From the IMG/VR virus record IMGVR_UViG_3300030450_002944, positions 1 to 64,000 of that record: a stretch of 64,000 nt of DNA. One strand, 5' to 3'. The notes under the pieces were generated by a model. It worked only from the letters and a program-made list of their open reading frames with translations, made no database searches and was not told where the DNA came from. Every line of letters starts with the position of its first letter. Position 1 is the stretch's first letter. Source of the DNA: a virus. Below are positions 2,833 through 56,774 of the stretch, piece by piece. A program made the position numbers and the translations under genes.

Positions 2833-4200
2833 ATGGCAACAAATCCATCATTATCTGAGTACGTTGCTCAGTCTCAAAGAGGTTTGTATTCTTCAGTATT
2901 CGGACCTGAATACTTACAGAAACAGACTTACTTTACAGTGGACACTGCTACAGGTATTTTTAATACTACCTATGGTAGAAAAGTTTGGCATTCATTAAAC
3001 AACCAAACTCGTTTCTTCAATGCTGTCCCAAGAACTGTTTGGGGTAACACAGCTGGTTGGAGGATAAGAACAGACAGAGGTTCAGGACGATCAAGACCTG
3101 TAACTGAAACTGGTTCACTTCCTACAGTTGACGTTTCTAACATTGAAAGCATTTCTAGTTTACCTAGAATTGTTTCAACTACTTTTGGTGCTTCAGTGAA
3201 GTCAGTCTTTACTGCACAGCTAGAAGGTGGTGTTGGTGATGTGTTAGCATTGGAAAACGAAAATGCACAACTTGACCACGTTAAAGAAATTAACGAAGAA
3301 CTAATGGCGGGATCTGGATACGTTGTATCTGCAGGTTCCTCAACTACTGGTACTGTACCAGCATCAGTAGCTAAAAACATAAAAATTGGAGACTCAGTTG
3401 CATACTGGGATACTTCTGCAAATGACTACATTGACTCATCTGGACTAGCAGTTTCAGCAGTAAACACATCTACGGGTGCTATTACTCACGCTACTGCATC
3501 AGCTACTATTGCTGACGGTGACGGTATGATCGTTGTAAAAAGAGCAGGACTAACTTCAATTGACGACATCGTTCAAGCTGACGGAGCTGTAGTAGGTGGG
3601 TCTTACGACTCTAACTCAAACTTCGCCGCAAACGGTGGTGTTAATGCTTATGACTTAACATTCGGAGCAAGGGCTGCAGGAAACTGGAACGCCGCTGCTA
3701 CAGTTAAGGATAACAACGGTGTAGGAAGAGACCTTTCTCTAAACCTACTTGATGACTGTATTCAGACAGTAAGAACTAATGGTGGAGAACCTAAACTAAT
3801 CGTTATGGGTCATGACCAATACTTCAAACTAGAAAGATTACTACAATCACAACAGAGATACTTAGGACAGGAAGAGTACCAAGTTGGTGTGGGTTCTGAA
3901 AGAACCTTCCCCGGAACTCGAACTGGACTAGTTCTTGCAACTTACCAAGGTATTCCAATCTTGCCAGATGCAGACACTCCAAAGGGTGTTAGCACAGCTG
4001 ACGCAGTATTGGGTTCAAACGTATATGTTTTGGACACAGACTATCTTGAAATAGCTGTGGCACAACCAACACAGTATATAGAAAACAGAGACTACTTTGC
4101 AGCTAACGCTCTAGTAGTAAGAGGATTACTATACACTATGGCAGAAATGCGATGTCACAACTTCTTCACACAAGCTAAGATTACAGACTTAAACGCGTAA
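2833..4200 (+). CDS. Major capsid protein
   Basis: A 455-residue protein behind GAGGAGAAATT, directly after the scaffold-like gene and before decoration proteins. The N-terminal part resembles the arm and E-loop region of HK97-fold capsids (FFNAVPRTVWGNTAGWRIRT). Residues about 165-235 form a Gly/Ser/Thr-rich insert that looks like an extra surface domain (GDSVAYWDTSANDYIDSSG). The C-terminal half (KLIVMGHDQYFKLERLLQ, then GIPILPDADTP and MAEMRCHNFF) matches capsid A-domain patterns. Codon use is more GC-rich than in nearby genes, as expected for a highly expressed gene. Confidence 0.85.
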   Translation: MATNPSLSEYVAQSQRGLYSSVFGPEYLQKQTYFTVDTATGIFNTTYGRKVWHSLNNQTRFFNAVPRTVWGNTAGWRIRTDRGSGRSRPVTETGSLPTVDVSNIESISSLPRIVSTTFGASVKSVFTAQLEGGVGDVLALENENAQLDHVKEINEELMAGSGYVVSAGSSTTGTVPASVAKNIKIGDSVAYWDTSANDYIDSSGLAVSAVNTSTGAITHATASATIADGDGMIVVKRAGLTSIDDIVQADGAVVGGSYDSNSNFAANGGVNAYDLTFGARAAGNWNAAATVKDNNGVGRDLSLNLLDDCIQTVRTNGGEPKLIVMGHDQYFKLERLLQSQQRYLGQEEYQVGVGSERTFPGTRTGLVLATYQGIPILPDADTPKGVSTADAVLGSNVYVLDTDYLEIAVAQPTQYIENRDYFAANALVVRGLLYTMAEMRCHNFFTQAKITDLNA

Positions 4201-29106: not shown

Positions 29107-29529
29107 ATGTATACATATAAATGCACAGTTACAAAAGTAATAGATGGAGACACTATTGATGTTGATATCCAATTAGGGTTTAATGTTATTCTATATAAAC
29201 AAAGAATAAGATTACATGGGATAGACACGCCAGAATCTAGAACTAGGAATTTGGAAGAAAAGGCTAGAGGATTACTTTCAAAAGATTTTATGAAGAAATT
29301 GGCTCCTGTCGGATCTTCCATTACTTTAAAGTCCTTAGAAAAAGGAAAATTTGGTAGGATATTAGGTATTATTTGGCAAGAAGGGGATGAATGGGAAACT
29401 GATTCTCCAATAAACGACTTAATGATTGAAAACTATCATGCAGTTCCATATACTGGACAAAACAAGAACGATGTAGAATCTTTACATGAAGCTAATAAAC
29501 TCAAGCTAATTGAAAAGGGAATCTTGTAA
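29107..29529 (+). CDS. Staphylococcal-nuclease-like (thermonuclease) protein
   Basis: A 140-residue protein with the SNase pattern: VTKVIDGDTIDVDI near residue 9, RIRLHGIDTPESR near residue 37 (Arg and Asp/Glu of the active site) and EKGKFGRILG near residue 79. The length equals a single catalytic domain with no signal peptide. SNase-like enzymes cut DNA and RNA with calcium; in phages they may degrade host DNA. The position at the head of virion genes is notable. Confidence 0.85.
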   Translation: MYTYKCTVTKVIDGDTIDVDIQLGFNVILYKQRIRLHGIDTPESRTRNLEEKARGLLSKDFMKKLAPVGSSITLKSLEKGKFGRILGIIWQEGDEWETDSPINDLMIENYHAVPYTGQNKNDVESLHEANKLKLIEKGIL

Positions 29530-29530
29530 A

Positions 29531-32500
29531 ATGCCAGACATTGATGCAATGACAGAAAAGTTAATGAAGGATCCTGATTTTCAGGCTAAGATAGGTAAAA
29601 CTAAGCGTGAAACTGCTCAAGAAGAGGCTACTCAAAGAGCACATCAACATAGAAAAAATTCTATGGCATTAGCATTAGGTAATGAGAGTAAGACTGCTGT
29701 AGAACATTTAAGTGAATATGCTAAATTAGAGGCTCAACGAAAAGAGATTGATGAAATGGTTTTCGGTGTTCCTACTGAAGAAATTCGAGATAAGATGGCA
29801 CGTCCTCTCAATGTGGTTGATATAGACATAAATGATCTTACTTTGAGTCCACCACCAGCTAATACAAGTACTCAGGTTAAAGAAGAATTAGAGACCATCA
29901 TTGATAAACATCTTCAAACAAAAGAAGATACAGATAATTTTGAATTTGAGATTGCAAAGCCTGCTGAAATACAAGATTTAGATATTTTAAAATCTTTCAT
30001 TAAATTAGCTGAAGAATTGGGACTTAGTGATGATATTACTAAAAAGAAATTAGAAGTAATAAAAGATGATTCTGCTACTATTGTTTTAAATCTAAAATAT
30101 TATTTCAATAGACCTAGACCTGAACAATTAATGGACTATCATGGAGTAGATTTTAAACCTGCAGATTTCAAAACTTCTGATACTCCTGCTTATCCATCTG
30201 GACATGCCTTTCAAGGTACATTAATTGCATTGATTTTATCTGAAGTGTTTCCACAACATGCAGATTCGTTTATGAAACTTGGTGAATCTATTGGTGAGAA
30301 TAGAGTAATTTTCGGTGTTCATTATCCTTCAGACCACGCCGCTGGTATAGAATTAGCAAAACAGGTTTTTCCTTATGTAAATTTTGAGAAATTAGATTTT
30401 AAACCCATTCCACAGGAATCCCAACCTTTAGAAAAAGACTTACCTAATATAGAAAAAGCTACAGGTATAGAAATTGCAGCTACAGGAGCAGCTCTAGCAT
30501 CTGGAGGAATAGCATTATGGGATTTATATCAAGCTTTTAAGAAAAATAAAAAATTAAAGCAGGAAGATAAAGTAGAATTAAACGAAGCTTTAGAGGAAAA
30601 TGAAGATAGTTTAAAAGAAACAAAAATTGATATAAAAGAAGATGAATTACCAGATTTAGAAAATGCTGATAATGTAGATGAATTAATAAGTGGTGTAAAA
30701 AATCCAGACAAAGCTGAACCAATTATTGAGAAAGTTAGGAAAAAAAGATGGGATTCTGGACTAAGTAAAGAAGACGCAGCTAAAATTAGAGCTGAACGTG
30801 AGGCTAAAAGAAAGGATGCTGCTACTCCTTTACCTAAAATTGGAGAAGGTGTAGAAGAACCAAAAGGTGAAGAACCTAAAAAAGTAGACGCTGAAAAGAA
30901 AGAGTCTGAACAAGTAGAGGAGAAGAAAGAGCCTCGAAAAATTCCTTTAGATATCCATAGTAAAAAAACTCTTATTGATAACATTGGTAAATTAGTAAAT
31001 CATATTCCTACTCATAGAGGAAAAAATGATAGTGATACTTCTAGAGGAAAATTTAATGCTTCTCAAATAAATCCAGATACATCATCTTTAGATCCTGTAG
31101 TACATCAATCATTTGAAAATTGGAGTACCCGAAACCCAGAAGATTTACATGATCATTTAAATTCCCTATCTGAAGAGAAATTAAGAGCTATAGCTTCAGC
31201 GTTAGGAGAACAAGCTAACCAAGTCGCTCCGGGTAGTGAATTGAATCCAGTAGGTTCATCAACAAGATTAGGTATTTTAGGTAGAATGCTTAGAGACGAT
31301 AAATCAGGTAAAAAAGAAATAGAAGGTGTATCTAATAAGGATTACCAAACAGCTTTAAGAGATTCTTTAAGTAGAGCTGTAAATTCTAATCACGATATAA
31401 CAGTTCCGGGTGGTGAAGAAGAAATTGTAGAAGCTGCTAATGAGAATTTAGAAGAAGAAACAAGACCTTCACCTGAAGAAGAGGCTAGAAGAAAATATGA
31501 AGCGGAACAAAAAGCAAAACGAGATGCTGAAGAGGCAGATAAAAAAGAAGAGGAATCTAAAGATAAAAAAACAGGGGGTCCTTCTCCTTTTGCAGTAGAA
31601 GAAGAGAGTAAACCAATTAATTTAGATGAAGCTGATTTAGGTAAGATTAAACTTGGTGACTCTAAAGAACTTACTAATTTAAATGGTTATCTATCAGATG
31701 CTAAATATGGTGGAATAAAAGGTCAAGAATTTACTAATGAAGATGGTACAGTAAAATCAAGATACATGCATGGTTTACAAGAATATATTAAAAAGAATCC
31801 TACTTCAGCTAAAATTGGTACTGATGGTTCAGTAGAGTTTGATCCTGAATACATAGGTAATTTAACAAAACACTTCTCAGAAAACCATGATGATGCTGCT
31901 ATGAGTAGATTATGGGAGAAAAACTATAGACATAAAGGAGCAAGTGATACATCTTCTATTGGATATGGTGATTATTCTCCATCAAAAGAAGCAAGAGGGG
32001 CTATACTTTCTAGAAAAGAAAAAATGGATAAAGTTATGGAACAACAATTTGGAGAAGATTGGGAAGATTCTAATGACTTTGATGTGAGAGCTGAAAGAGA
32101 ACATCTTCAATCAATGGATTCAAAAACATTTAATAAACATTTTGATACTGCATATTTAAAACCATTGAGATCTCAGAGACAAAAAGATAGGACTGCAGGT
32201 ATAAAAGCAGAGACCCCCAAAGATCCTAATAAAGAACGATGGAATTTAAAGGATTCTAGTCCTGATGAAGCCTATGAAAAAGCTAAAGAAATGATAGCTC
32301 ATTCACTTGAACATAGTGAAGAACATGGTGGAAAAGGTTTAGACGAAAAGACTGTTTCTCATATGAATAAACAACTATCAGCTGCTCGTAAAGCAATGGG
32401 AGCTGATAATATTAAAAAACTTAACCAAGAAATCAAAGATGGTAGTATCCAACCTACTAAAGCTGAAGAGCCTAAAGAGGATAAAGATTACGAAGGATCA

Positions 32501-33205
32501 GATATTCCAGATGAAGCAAGAGGATATGGAGATGCTCCTGAAGGTGTTAAGACATATAAAGGACCATCAGGTGGAGTATTTTATGATAAGAGGGAAGCAA
32601 AAAAGAAAGATAGTGAAGGTGGGGGTGACGGAACATCTGATTCTGGTGATACGGGAGACTCAGGTGAAAAAATGCCTCCACCATCTATACCAGAAGATTC
32701 TAAAATATCTTCAGATGAACCTGTTGGAGATAAAGCATCTGCATGGGGAGATAAAATCGGATCTGCTGTAAGTGCTTTAGGTAGACTTACTGGAAAAGCA
32801 GGTAAAGAAGATAGAAAAAAATTAATAGCTGATGCGGCTAAGACATTTAAAGAAGCTGGTAAAGCAGTTGGAAAAGAAGGTAAAAGAGCTTTTAATGAAA
32901 TTGGATCAGCAATGGCTGAAGAAATAGCTAGATCTAGAGGTTATGGTGAGGCTCAAGCCAAAAATGCTAAACTTAAATATCAATTACAAGCTGCTGCCAG
33001 AGGTATTCCAATAGCAGGTAAAATAATTCCTAAAACTGAAGGATATAAAGGAGAATCAAAGGCTGGAGTCAGAGGGGCAAAACAAGAAACAAGAGCTAAA
33101 GAACAAGCAGCTTATGAGAAATTAACCTATGGAGACAAAGTAGATTTTGAAGTTTCTAAGAGTAATTTAAAAAAACTACAGGATTTTACTAAAAATAGAG
33201 TATAA
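29531..33205 (+). CDS. Large virion protein with PAP2-type phosphatase domain
   Basis: Start at ATG 29531, since no ribosome-binding site supports the TTG at 29510; 1224 residues. Residues 189-268 hold a complete PAP2/class A acid phosphatase signature: K189-x6-R196-P197, then PSGH (222-225), then R258-x5-H264-x3-D268. The remainder is charged and coiled-coil-rich, with YKGPSGGVFYDKRE (about 1015), a motif seen in phage minor head proteins. Lys/Ala-rich C-terminal part. Probably virion-internal or neck protein. The enzymatic substrate is unknown. Confidence 0.7.
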   Translation: MPDIDAMTEKLMKDPDFQAKIGKTKRETAQEEATQRAHQHRKNSMALALGNESKTAVEHLSEYAKLEAQRKEIDEMVFGVPTEEIRDKMARPLNVVDIDINDLTLSPPPANTSTQVKEELETIIDKHLQTKEDTDNFEFEIAKPAEIQDLDILKSFIKLAEELGLSDDITKKKLEVIKDDSATIVLNLKYYFNRPRPEQLMDYHGVDFKPADFKTSDTPAYPSGHAFQGTLIALILSEVFPQHADSFMKLGESIGENRVIFGVHYPSDHAAGIELAKQVFPYVNFEKLDFKPIPQESQPLEKDLPNIEKATGIEIAATGAALASGGIALWDLYQAFKKNKKLKQEDKVELNEALEENEDSLKETKIDIKEDELPDLENADNVDELISGVKNPDKAEPIIEKVRKKRWDSGLSKEDAAKIRAEREAKRKDAATPLPKIGEGVEEPKGEEPKKVDAEKKESEQVEEKKEPRKIPLDIHSKKTLIDNIGKLVNHIPTHRGKNDSDTSRGKFNASQINPDTSSLDPVVHQSFENWSTRNPEDLHDHLNSLSEEKLRAIASALGEQANQVAPGSELNPVGSSTRLGILGRMLRDDKSGKKEIEGVSNKDYQTALRDSLSRAVNSNHDITVPGGEEEIVEAANENLEEETRPSPEEEARRKYEAEQKAKRDAEEADKKEEESKDKKTGGPSPFAVEEESKPINLDEADLGKIKLGDSKELTNLNGYLSDAKYGGIKGQEFTNEDGTVKSRYMHGLQEYIKKNPTSAKIGTDGSVEFDPEYIGNLTKHFSENHDDAAMSRLWEKNYRHKGASDTSSIGYGDYSPSKEARGAILSRKEKMDKVMEQQFGEDWEDSNDFDVRAEREHLQSMDSKTFNKHFDTAYLKPLRSQRQKDRTAGIKAETPKDPNKERWNLKDSSPDEAYEKAKEMIAHSLEHSEEHGGKGLDEKTVSHMNKQLSAARKAMGADNIKKLNQEIKDGSIQPTKAEEPKEDKDYEGSDIPDEARGYGDAPEGVKTYKGPSGGVFYDKREAKKKDSEGGGDGTSDSGDTGDSGEKMPPPSIPEDSKISSDEPVGDKASAWGDKIGSAVSALGRLTGKAGKEDRKKLIADAAKTFKEAGKAVGKEGKRAFNEIGSAMAEEIARSRGYGEAQAKNAKLKYQLQAAARGIPIAGKIIPKTEGYKGESKAGVRGAKQETRAKEQAAYEKLTYGDKVDFEVSKSNLKKLQDFTKNRV

Positions 33206-33211: not shown

Positions 33212-34834
33212 ATGGACATACTAAAACGGTTAGCAAAACTTACATTAAAAAAGGCTCAGAGGGTTAGAGACCCTTGGGCTGTCGCTACGTCTATGACTGA
33301 AGGTAACAATAAGAAGAATAATCCGGGTGGTACTCCAAAAGGAGCTATTGTTGAAGGTATAAAAAGAAATGAATGGAACTCACCAGAAGGTTTAGATGGA
33401 GCAATGGAGCGACATGGGGAACATCATGGAACAAGTTCAGAACGAAAAAAAGGACACTCTTACGATAGAGACTATAAAGAGGGTCAGAAGTATGATTCAT
33501 CTAAAAGAAATACAGATGCTGTAACCCCAGAAGAAAAAAAGAAGACTAAAGAAGAATATGCAGCTAGAAAACCTGTAACTGAAACAGAGATGAGTCAAGA
33601 AACTGCTTTAAGAGAGGCAGTAGATTCAATAAAAGACGAATTAAAGACCAGTCAAAAAGATAGAACCTTCGTATATTCTCAAATTAGAGATGCTTTAGCT
33701 AAAATTACTGGTGATAGTAAAGCAGAAACTGATAAAGATATTAAAGATAAACTTACTCCTGAAGAACAGGAGAAAATTAAAGATGAACCTCCTATAAAAG
33801 ATGTAGTCGAAAAGGTCCCAGAACCGAAAGAAGGAGACACTATATCAAAAATAAATTCAAAGGTTAATGAAGGTAATATTAACCAAATACGACAACAGGT
33901 TGAATCGGAAGTAAAAAGTGTTTTATCAGTTAAAAGAGAAGGTAAAAAACCTGATATTGCAGATGCTAAAAATAAAGTACAAAATGCTCTTGATGCATAC
34001 AGTAGTAAAGCAACTGATTTATCAGTTGGATATGGGGGTGAATCCGAGGTTAAAGATGCTGCCAAGAAAATAGATTCTGCTTTAAAAGACTTAAATAATT
34101 TCAAAGTTGAAAAATCTACATCATCTTCTAGAAGATTACTTAATATATTAAAAGAAACAACTACTGTAAATAATGACCAACTTGAAAAAGATCTTATATC
34201 AGCTCTAAGTCAAGCAATGAAAAAACATTCAGATGGATTTAAAGTACCTACTGGTAACAATGAAATTTTAAAAAATATTAGAAAACAATATGTTAAAAAA
34301 GGTATAGGAAGTGCTTTACTAGCTATGCTAGCAGGGTATGCTCTAACACCTAAAGTAAGTTCGGGTGAGATGACACCAGCTCAACAAAGACAATGGGAGA
34401 GAACTCTCGCAAATCAAATGAGAAAAAAGAATATAGACATCGACTCGGACACATTTAAAGCCCTACAAAATTTCTATAAAGATCAATCAGATACTTATAC
34501 TAGAAAAAAACCAGCTAAAAATGGTGTAAATATTGAAAAGATATTAACTTCTCCACCATTTCAAGGAGCAGAATTTGATCCAACTTCTCACAGATGGAAG
34601 AAAGCTGGACAAGTTTCAGCTCAAACTGGACAAGTAAATGTTGGAACTGGTGGTAAAAGAAGAATTAGAGGAGCTGGAACAGGAGCTGCTCAAAGATCTG
34701 TAGGTGGACATAAACGAGGAATAGTAAGAGAAGCAAGAAGAGGAATTGGAGCAAGAGCTGCTAGAAGAAAATCTGATATTAAAAGTAGGTCTTCTAGAAT
34801 TAAAGCGTATAAAAAATTAACACGAAAGAAATAG
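33212..34834 (+). CDS. Virion protein with basic C-terminus
   Basis: A 540-residue protein. The N-terminal third is polar and rich in Lys, Gly and Glu; the middle is coiled coil; near residue 368 a short hydrophobic segment (GSALLAMLAGYAL) occurs. The last 70 residues are arginine-rich (KRGIVREARRGIGARAARRKS), fit for DNA binding. No ribosome-binding site; start 5 bp after TATAAT. Probably packaged with DNA or at the neck. No named family. Confidence 0.6.
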   Translation: MDILKRLAKLTLKKAQRVRDPWAVATSMTEGNNKKNNPGGTPKGAIVEGIKRNEWNSPEGLDGAMERHGEHHGTSSERKKGHSYDRDYKEGQKYDSSKRNTDAVTPEEKKKTKEEYAARKPVTETEMSQETALREAVDSIKDELKTSQKDRTFVYSQIRDALAKITGDSKAETDKDIKDKLTPEEQEKIKDEPPIKDVVEKVPEPKEGDTISKINSKVNEGNINQIRQQVESEVKSVLSVKREGKKPDIADAKNKVQNALDAYSSKATDLSVGYGGESEVKDAAKKIDSALKDLNNFKVEKSTSSSRRLLNILKETTTVNNDQLEKDLISALSQAMKKHSDGFKVPTGNNEILKNIRKQYVKKGIGSALLAMLAGYALTPKVSSGEMTPAQQRQWERTLANQMRKKNIDIDSDTFKALQNFYKDQSDTYTRKKPAKNGVNIEKILTSPPFQGAEFDPTSHRWKKAGQVSAQTGQVNVGTGGKRRIRGAGTGAAQRSVGGHKRGIVREARRGIGARAARRKSDIKSRSSRIKAYKKLTRKK

Positions 34835-48411: not shown

Positions 48412-49320
48412 GTGGTGTTTAAACGAATGGCAAAAGCTTTACCTAGTAGGGCTGGATTAAGTGCAATAGGATCTGCTTATAGAAAAGGCGGAGCTGCATC
48501 TGCATCTTATTCAGGCATTGGTACTGCTATGGCTTCTCCGTTTAAAGCCTTAGCTGAAACTGCAAAAGAGATGAAAAGTCCTGCAGGTAAGTTTTGGGGA
48601 GCTTTAACTAAAAATAAAAGTATATTAGGAATTAATCTTGGTATTGGTTCACTCTTAAAACAATCTCAGGTATTTACTGGGGCAGTAAGTACAATTATGC
48701 AAATCATTGGAGCTATGGTGGATGTTTTAATTGCACCTTGGATTGTTCCTTTATTTATACCATTAGCTAAAAAAATGGTTTCATTTATACCTAAAATTCG
48801 AGAATGGTCAGCGGATTTAGCTGAAAAATATGTTCCAAAAATTAAAGCTATATTTGATAATTTAGTTACTGGTGAAGGAACTCTTTGGGAAAGAATAGGA
48901 GAATTTATTGGCGAGAGTTGGAATCTAATTTGGGAAGATACCGGACTATCAAAATGGTGGAATGAGCAAACAGGAATTTTAGGAGTATTTACAAAAACAT
49001 TATCAGCTGCTGGTACAGGATTAGCAAAAGTGTATAATTTCTTTGCGAATATTGGAGAAGGTCCATTTAATAATTATTGGGCTAATATGGCTTGGAACGC
49101 AATTTCAGTATCTGCCTCATTTGCTGCTGGTCCAATGTCTAGCAGAGCTGTCAGTCGACTTTTTAACCTTTTAGAAAGTTTAATTGAAGGGGGAGATCCA
49201 GCACCTGACTTTCCTCAAATACCAACATCACCTCCAGCCCCAGCTGCATTTCAAGATATATATGAAAAATCTGGTGTAGGACTAGGAGTAAGCTATGATC
49301 CATATGGGGGTAATGTATAA
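48412..49320 (+). CDS. Short tape-measure-like protein 1
   Basis: GTG start. A 302-residue protein placed directly after the tail chaperones, where the tape measure gene is expected. Core residues 50-150 (GKFWGALTKNKSILGIN, FTGAVSTIMQIIGAMVDVLIAP, PLFIPLAKKM) form hydrophobic helices. It is closely similar to the next gene. Tape measures are usually much longer; about 300 residues would imply a short tail. Confidence 0.55.
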   Translation: MVFKRMAKALPSRAGLSAIGSAYRKGGAASASYSGIGTAMASPFKALAETAKEMKSPAGKFWGALTKNKSILGINLGIGSLLKQSQVFTGAVSTIMQIIGAMVDVLIAPWIVPLFIPLAKKMVSFIPKIREWSADLAEKYVPKIKAIFDNLVTGEGTLWERIGEFIGESWNLIWEDTGLSKWWNEQTGILGVFTKTLSAAGTGLAKVYNFFANIGEGPFNNYWANMAWNAISVSASFAAGPMSSRAVSRLFNLLESLIEGGDPAPDFPQIPTSPPAPAAFQDIYEKSGVGLGVSYDPYGGNV

Positions 49321-50360
49321 TGGTATTTAAAGCAGCAGGAGCAGGAATTAGAGGTGTTAAGGGCACATATCAATTTGGAAAAAGAATGCATAAAGAGGTA
49401 GGTCGTGCTCATAGAACAGGTGGGAGAGCATCAGCAGCTTATAAAGCAGCCGGAATGCTTGCAAGTGGTCCCGGAAAACTTGTAGCCGAATCTGCTAAAG
49501 ATGTACTAAAACCGAGTGGTAAATTTTGGTCAATATTATCTAAAAATAAAACTATATTAGGAATAAATGTAGGTGTTGGGGCATTTTTAAAACAATCTCA
49601 GGTATTTACTGGAGCTATCAGCTCTATTTTACAAATTGTTGGAGCTATGGTTGACGTATTGATAGCTCCTTGGTTAATACCATTAATTATTCCATTAGCT
49701 AAAAAAATGGCATCAGCCATTCCAAAAATTCAAGAATGGTCACAAGCATTAGCAGATAAATATGTTCCAATTATTAAGGATAAACTTAGTGCAATTTGGA
49801 ATGGTGAAGGAAGCTTTATGGGTAAAATCTGGGATTCTATAAAAGGTGTAATTAATATAGTATGGACAGAAAGTGGTTTACAAAAATGGTGGCAAGAGGC
49901 AGAAGGTATAATGGGATTTTTTAGAACCACTGTTGAGGCTACAGTTGGTATATTACGATTTATGGGATTAATTGAAAAACCAGCAGTTCAAATGACTCAG
50001 GGAGATATGGATAGAGAGGCATTTGGAGCTAAATATAAAGATGCAGCTTATGAAAGATCTCATCAAGAAGGATTAGCCTTTGAGGGTCGCTGGGCATATT
50101 ATACTGGGCATATGGAAAGATATGGAAATATGTACGACTCAGGTAAAAATGAATGGTCAGGTACTGATTATGGTGGTTTTGGGACAGGACCCGGATTTGC
50201 TAACGTACCCGGAGGAGCTGGTGGAGTAATGGCTCCTGCAAATAGTTTAGCCCAAACGATTCAAAAATCACATACACAAAATTCAGCTGAAGGTATAGAA
50301 AAAGTCTTAGAGTGGTTAACAGATCCAGCAGGGATTTTCAGTAATTGGAAACCATGGTAA
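49320..50360 (+). CDS. Short tape-measure-like protein 2
   Basis: A 346-residue paralogue of the preceding gene, with ATG overlapping its stop. Shared blocks are GKFWSILSKNKTILGIN, LKQSQVFTGA, IVGAMVDVLIAPWLIPL and PLAKKM. The C-terminal half differs (FEGRWAYYTGHMERYGN). Tandem duplication is clear. It may have split the tape-measure or initiator role with its neighbour. Confidence 0.6.
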   Translation: MVFKAAGAGIRGVKGTYQFGKRMHKEVGRAHRTGGRASAAYKAAGMLASGPGKLVAESAKDVLKPSGKFWSILSKNKTILGINVGVGAFLKQSQVFTGAISSILQIVGAMVDVLIAPWLIPLIIPLAKKMASAIPKIQEWSQALADKYVPIIKDKLSAIWNGEGSFMGKIWDSIKGVINIVWTESGLQKWWQEAEGIMGFFRTTVEATVGILRFMGLIEKPAVQMTQGDMDREAFGAKYKDAAYERSHQEGLAFEGRWAYYTGHMERYGNMYDSGKNEWSGTDYGGFGTGPGFANVPGGAGGVMAPANSLAQTIQKSHTQNSAEGIEKVLEWLTDPAGIFSNWKPW

Positions 50361-55827: not shown

Positions 55828-56250
55828 ATGACATTAGCATATACTAATCGTACAGATCCATTTAATATTTTTGGAGATTTTCTAAATAGAGAATGGTCAG
55901 CTTCAAGAGCTACCGTAAAATATCCATTAGATATTGTGGAATCTAAAGATGCATATAAAGTTAAGATTTCGTTACCCGGTGTGGAAAAAGGGAATCTTTC
56001 AGTTACTATAGATAAGGACATTCTAGTTATAGAGGCAAAGGATGTAGCAGCTGAAAAAGAAGCAGAGAAAGGTACATATATTTATAAAGGTATTAGAACA
56101 GGTTCTTACAAGAGAGAAATCTCTGTAAAAGATTACGGTGTAGACAGTAAGAAAGTTACTTCTGTTTACAAGAATGGTATCCTAACTATAAACATGCCTA
56201 AAACTAAGGAGGCAAAACCACAGATTATTTCTGTGGCTATGGATGGATAA
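55828..56250 (+). CDS. Hsp20 small heat-shock chaperone
   Basis: A 140-residue protein with AGGAGGAAAT upstream. The alpha-crystallin domain covers residues 30-125 (YPLDIVESKDAYKVKISLPGVEKGN; the closing GILTINMPK). It likely holds unfolded proteins, and Hsp20 is known in marine T4-like phages. It is co-transcribed with the sigma factor. Confidence 0.9.
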   Translation: MTLAYTNRTDPFNIFGDFLNREWSASRATVKYPLDIVESKDAYKVKISLPGVEKGNLSVTIDKDILVIEAKDVAAEKEAEKGTYIYKGIRTGSYKREISVKDYGVDSKKVTSVYKNGILTINMPKTKEAKPQIISVAMDG

Positions 56251-56774
56251 TGGAGATAAACGATGAATTAATTAGGCAATGGGAACCTAAAATTCATAAA
56301 ATGCTCCAAACATCGTATGTAATTGGGTATGATCGTGATGATCTTGCTCAAGAACTTAGAATTGCTATTATGAAAGCAGCTAAATCCTTTAACCCAGAGC
56401 GAGGTGTAATCTTTCATACCTATTTACATACTACAATGGTTAATACTATTAGAACTTTAATATCAAAAGCACAGAAGAAACCTGTGACTGTTAGTTATGA
56501 TGAACGCTTTTATGGTGATGATTCCGATATTTTACCTAAGAAACTTGGCGAAGCCTTAACATATGCCGAGGATTGGGAAATATTAGAATTATATGATGAA
56601 CTAGAGAAGTTTAATCTAACTGATAGAGAGAAAAGATTTATAGAATTAAGATTAGAAGGTTGGACCATGGATGAAATTTCCACTGATTTAGAGAAATCTG
56701 CCTATAGAATTAGACAAAATTTAAGAATAAAAGTAGAGAATATTTTTTATGGTAAAGAAACAGAAAAGGATTGA
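56250..56774 (+). CDS. Phage RNA polymerase sigma factor
   Basis: A 174-residue protein. Region 2 is visible at residues 25-70 (YDRDDLAQELRIAIMKAAKSFNPERG, then TYLHTTMVNTIRTLI) and region 4 at 117-165 (LTDREKRFIELRLEGWTMDEIS, then RIRQNLRIKVENIF). Regions 1 and 3 are missing, as in phage late or ECF-like sigma factors. It is expected to redirect host RNA polymerase, plausibly to the GTATAATA promoters. ATG overlaps the Hsp20 stop. Confidence 0.75.
   Translation: MEINDELIRQWEPKIHKMLQTSYVIGYDRDDLAQELRIAIMKAAKSFNPERGVIFHTYLHTTMVNTIRTLISKAQKKPVTVSYDERFYGDDSDILPKKLGEALTYAEDWEILELYDELEKFNLTDREKRFIELRLEGWTMDEISTDLEKSAYRIRQNLRIKVENIFYGKETEKD

Follow-up and report, generated by a model that had tools for sequence, protein, structure and literature searches.

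Class A non-specific acid phosphatases, among them PhoN, PhoC and the enzymes of E. blattae (1d2t/1eoi) and P. aeruginosa (7f17), hydrolyse mononucleotides well, releasing phosphate (PMC12356135). The leaders of the T4 internal proteins are capsid-targeting sequences in which targeting depends chiefly on residues 4 and 7, and processing on residues 8 and 10; many such proteins are ejected into the host (PMC9026906; PMC3012670). The viral PAP2 domains described here resemble class A acid phosphatases in their whole-domain fold, their N-terminal PPPA..S segment and helices, and their catalytic K/R/PSGH/R/H/D residues, but the viral family lacks the signal peptide and its domains are embedded in, or tagged for, phage head proteins. 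T4-like members share with the T4 internal head proteins (Alt, IPI, IPII and IPIII) an N-terminal leader of the capsid-targeting type, and ejection with the DNA is expected of them; their mature part, by contrast, is a PAP2 phosphatase. To our knowledge, only a few model phages (T4 with Alt and IPI, SPN3US with its ejection proteins) are known to inject proteins along with their DNA, and our literature search on PAP2 in virions found nothing on point. A known enzyme superfamily is here put to a use undescribed in the literature searched: virus-specific phosphatases repeatedly attached to head-targeting devices.

The window analysed here, a 64,000-nucleotide stretch of the 81,307-bp record of an uncultivated tailed virus, encodes a 1224-aa protein with a PAP2 domain near its N-terminus (Table 1). 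The first-pass annotation had read a complete PAP2 signature in this protein, and the translation bears it out: K189-x6-RP, PSGH (222–225) and R258-x5-H264-x3-D268 occur in order with gaps of 24 and 32 residues, and all catalytic residues are kept, with N257 in the usual place of Ser before R258. Pfam assigns the protein to PF01569 with an E-value of 3.1e-13 and 50.1 bits against a cut-off of 27.2; on these scores the match is far beyond chance. The homologous unit (~aa 82–297) exceeds the motif span and includes the N-terminal PPPA segment common to class A acid phosphatases. The latter were recovered from the PDB by phmmer with the window protein (E 4e-11), and a profile of 12 viral relatives matched P. 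aeruginosa 7f17 over most of the domain (E 1.5e-23).

Table 1. The PAP2 gene and its surroundings (window coordinates)
Feature	Position	Strand	Evidence or remark
PAP2-carrying 1224-aa protein	29531..33205	+	open frame translated; domain near N-terminus
PAP2 / class A acid-phosphatase-like domain, aa 82-300 as modelled	29774..30430	+	PF01569, AF2 model, Z against 1eoi/2akc
Motif 1, K189-x6-R196-P197	30095..30121	+	K and RP invariant in alignment of relatives
Motif 2, PSGH, aa 222-225	30194..30205	+	invariant in alignment of relatives
Motif 3, R258-x5-H264-x3-D268, preceded by N257	30302..30334	+	R, H and D invariant in alignment of relatives
C-terminal 924 aa of the 1224-aa protein, highly charged	30431..33202	+	no known domain, no relatives found
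Staphylococcal-nuclease-like (SNase) gene, directly upstream of PAP2 gene	29107..29529	+	PF00565 E 1e-8; phrog_452 E 3e-33
540-aa orphan protein, directly downstream of PAP2 gene; late cluster start	33212..34834	+	no family match over cut-off
Major capsid protein (MCP)	2833..4200	+	81-84% identity to MCP of sisters with head-module PAP2 fusion

An AlphaFold2 model of the window domain, built with the 12 viral relatives, reached a pLDDT of 92.1 and a pTM of 0.90. Its closest solved structure is 1eoi from E. blattae (Z 18.9, rmsd 3.0 Å, 194 aa), with 2akc PhoN and 7f17 both at Z 18.4 and the class as a whole at Z 16–19; haloperoxidase structures follow at about 13–16. The structure comparison proposed in the first-pass annotation therefore returned a PAP2 fold, and a contrary fold was not seen. 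The domain combines the superfamily's motif, Pfam score and all-helical core with the fold and full-length similarity of class A acid phosphatases. The PROSITE signature of that class is G-S-Y-P-S-G-H-T; the window domain instead reads PAYPSGHA (AYPSGHA for GSYPSGHT). We found in the domain no cysteine, no membrane-type hydrophobic helix and no signal peptide, and thus no secretion signal of the kind class A enzymes carry: the first 45 aa of the protein are hydrophilic (maximum KD11 -0.25), as are the 81 aa upstream of the domain. By simple hydropathy alone, a signal-peptide-like N-terminus was seen in 1 of 61 viral proteins versus 19 of 29 cellular relatives. As modelled, the window domain is a soluble PAP2 domain with a class A acid-phosphatase fold and an intact catalytic site.

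The window domain falls into a virus-specific family. A direct search of IMG/VR returned 11 relatives, and a profile of these identified 348 tblastn-confirmed IMG/VR stretches, the best 80 of which were retained. In 84,980 species genomes the strongest cellular hit had an E-value of 7e-19, versus 1e-46 for the best viral match. Four queries against 50,697 GenBank phage records gave weak matches only (best E 4e-7), of which several fell on bacterial contigs. Three close folds did emerge when viral structure models were searched (best A0A1B1IV46, E 2.8e-9), and databases are therefore not entirely devoid of the family. Maximum-likelihood analysis sets the viral rows apart from the cellular rows, with two label changes when two very long cellular branches are included and one (SH-aLRT 76) when they are left out; a single viral origin of the family is likely on this topology. 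Although the relatives are only 30–45% identical to the window domain overall, the complete catalytic motif is present in 66 of 66 distinct viral domains, a count partly biased in that the search seeds covered PSGH or GxHxxSD, with K, RP and R lying outside them. K189, H225 and H264, whose poor conservation would have spoken against the first-pass annotation, are kept throughout. The residue before the motif 3 Arg varies in these 66 domains (S 36, G 14, N 13, A 3).

How the domain is carried differs from virus to virus: 25 of the 66 domains are free-standing, 28 lie at the N-terminus of a longer protein, 9 have a C-terminal or central place, and 4 are cut. A T4-type capsid-targeting leader (for example MKSFKSYISLQEQ, MKTFLQVIKETP and MKSFAEIIQEES) begins 34 of the 53 proteins in which the domain lies close to the N-terminus and is absent from the other 19, as compared to 1 of 931 ORFs in cellular loci. 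The rule behind this count was defined in this analysis and loosened after a stricter first pattern (20/53 versus 0/1006 in the background); applied to T4, it picks out IPII and IPIII (MKTYQEFIAEA) and none of 24 other T4 genes tested. Leader-bearing neighbour genes cluster around the phosphatase, with 28 of 29 lying within 6 kb of PAP2, and a T4-type prohead protease and gp23 are encoded in the records of L027, L031, L057, L010 and L012. Arrays of leader-bearing genes were also observed (L033:3500-11568, L062:7872-16512, and in L031 and L063), with leaders of the types MKSFKQYIKEE and MKSFEQYIAEA or, in L031 and L063, MIKLxxIL-E; their members include DUF6267, cytidyltransferase/NMNAT-like and kinase-like proteins, and these arrays are possibly a catalogue of injected phage proteins.

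A second form of attachment joins the phosphatase to the prohead protease. In L075, PAP2 is followed directly, in one polypeptide, by a domain modelled like T4 gp21 (5jbl, Z 12.4 over 150 aa) and then by a scaffold-like tail; the match comes from structural re-alignment on a model of pLDDT only 66.7, and the next-best structures are herpesvirus proteases at Z about 5. Foldseek alone gave no significant match for this segment; PHROGs recovered no protease, and Pfam gave only a sub-threshold S78 match. L178 carries the same PAP2-protease fusion (PF04586 E 9e-4, just under the cut-off), and the L075 fusion gene sits between the portal and MCP genes. Relative to known prohead proteases (T4 gp21 of S77, HK97-type of S78), PAP2 is an N-terminal addition: close relatives of this protease carry another N-terminal part (L177) or none (L179). 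In L177 (1657-4329) the same prohead protease-scaffold is preceded by a different domain in place of PAP2. In L056 the portal gene and a 1195-aa gene precede the PAP2 gene, whose product also shows a weak HNH match. Many marine phages appear to tag or fuse the domain for packing inside the virus head.

The window virus itself keeps the domain on a different carrier. Its sisters L002-L015 have terminase, ribonucleotide reductase, portal and MCP proteins 75–85% identical to its own (portal 75%, MCP 81–84%), and in them PAP2 forms the C-terminal domain of a protein whose gene directly follows that of the portal. The orthologue of that protein in the window virus (genome 77236-78144, 34% identity) lacks PAP2, and a PAP2 domain 41% identical to those of the sisters is found instead within the 1224-aa protein, at 29.5 kb of the record; the domain has been kept and its carrier differs. 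By these comparisons, PAP2 has moved onto another, orphan protein. The new carrier starts MPDIDAMTEKLMKDPDF, with no capsid-targeting leader. Its ATG at 29531 comes 1 nt after the stop of the SNase gene, and it opens a late cluster that runs on into tail genes. Its C-terminal part (744–924 aa) had no Pfam or PHROG match and, like the downstream 540-aa protein, no relatives in viral contigs or sister virus records. Of 11 other PAP2-bearing virus records tested, 4 also contain SNase genes, which lie close to PAP2 in L062, L051 and L057.

We consider it probable, though far from certain, that the family consists of head-packaged soluble phosphomonoesterases injected with the genome, which would probably act on small phosphorylated metabolites such as nucleotides. 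PAP2 would be attached to whatever brings cargo into the prohead (a T4-type leader, a prohead protease-scaffold polyprotein or a portal-adjacent head protein), and the packaged enzyme would be ejected into the host together with the DNA. Early in infection it would then remove phosphate from small phosphorylated compounds, and the benefit would be a host-takeover or counter-defence step. Nucleotides are the best guess from the PhoN-type relatives; they, or another small phosphorylated metabolite, would be the likeliest target because mononucleotides are good substrates of class A enzymes. The support for packaging is good in the T4-like and protease-fused members and moderate in the portal-adjacent fusions. 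The first-pass annotation had called the window protein a virion protein; that description holds for its relatives, through their head-module fusions, leaders and protease fusion, and extends more weakly to the window protein, by gene position and kinship only, given its missing leader, ~900 orphan residues and tail-side position.

The first-pass annotation suggested action on host membrane lipids at entry, a reading in which a virion-borne enzyme would dephosphorylate host membrane or envelope lipids. PgpB, LpxE and LPP1 do belong to the same superfamily, sharing the catalytic motif and core fold, and association with the virion is plausible. The viral domain, however, is clearly less similar to them in structure (LpxE and YodM Z 14.1, PgpB 10.0, LPP1 8.8, versus 18.9 for the nearest class A enzyme) and in sequence, the viral profile reaching LpxE with an E-value of only 6e-7. 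A soluble fold without transmembrane helices, signal peptide or cysteines does not favour action on membrane lipids, and the leaders and protease fusion place the relatives within the capsid and not on the tail, as would befit cargo carried inside the head and delivered into the cell; we therefore regard the lipid role as improbable. The same comparisons lower the case for a vanadium-dependent haloperoxidase-like enzyme, which we judge extremely unlikely. These enzymes share the active site of the viral domain and match it in structure at Z 14–16, and the P-[AS]-Y-PSGHA segment of the viral domain resembles theirs; yet sequence matches are marginal (E 0.002–0.007), and the viral domain can be aligned over its whole length with class A acid phosphatases but with only part of haloperoxidase chains of 400–600 aa. 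At ~215 aa, preceded by 81 hydrophilic residues, it falls short of the size (over 400 aa) and additional helical bundle of that family.

Two further readings leave the fold as modelled and question its use. The enzyme could be an auxiliary metabolic phosphatase made in the infected cell, freeing phosphate or recycling nucleotides, its links to head genes being incidental. Class A acid phosphatases free phosphate from mononucleotides, many carriers are T4-like phages, and T4-like phages often carry auxiliary genes; against this, repeated fusion to head proteins and a prohead protease, together with capsid-targeting leaders, is unexpected for an ordinary metabolic gene, and the viral proteins lack the signal peptide of their cellular relatives. 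We hold this reading to be unlikely, if worth keeping in mind. Alternatively, the PAP2 fold may have been retained as a structural or binding domain, for example one that binds phosphate or DNA within the head, and catalysis would then not be the selected function. The domain is indeed embedded in charged, scaffold-like proteins, and Asn, Gly or Ala often replaces the Ser before the motif 3 Arg, but the catalytic positions are preserved across the whole divergent set of viral domains, which makes a non-catalytic role very unlikely.

A bolder form of the head-packaged phosphatase reading is that such enzymes are widespread, virus-specific and capsid-delivered, that they move between unrelated tailed phages and join a different head-targeting device at each transfer, and that within minutes of the start of infection they disarm a phospho-metabolite or nucleotide signal of the host; we offer this tentatively, as somewhat less than an even bet. 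An enzyme family with leaders, a head-protease fusion and portal adjacency in uncultivated viruses would provide a handle on what such phages bring into the cell, and would be a testable candidate for host takeover or counter-defence in the first minute; it also suggests that leader-based mining may find injected proteins in metagenomes.

Several other features of the window virus were observed. Beyond the window, directly after the portal gene (genome 73902-77291; L169:10902-14291), a 1129-aa protein combines poly(A)/CCA-type nucleotidyltransferase, HD and topoisomerase IB domains and ends in a ~90-aa module found at the C-terminal end of the sisters' portal protein; it is possibly another head-associated multi-enzyme protein. 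A gene for a PnrA/BMP-type substrate-binding lipoprotein lies inside the head module (genome 78219-79367; L169:15219-16367). A sigma-70-like protein with regions 2 and 4 (56250-56774), RecA, a DnaG-type primase and a family A polymerase suggest a bacterial host, at odds with the window MCP, which among GenBank phages is nearest to haloarchaeal viruses. Finally, two adjacent genes (48412-49320 and 49320-50360) encode paralogous tape-measure-like proteins that are 56% identical over 163 aa.
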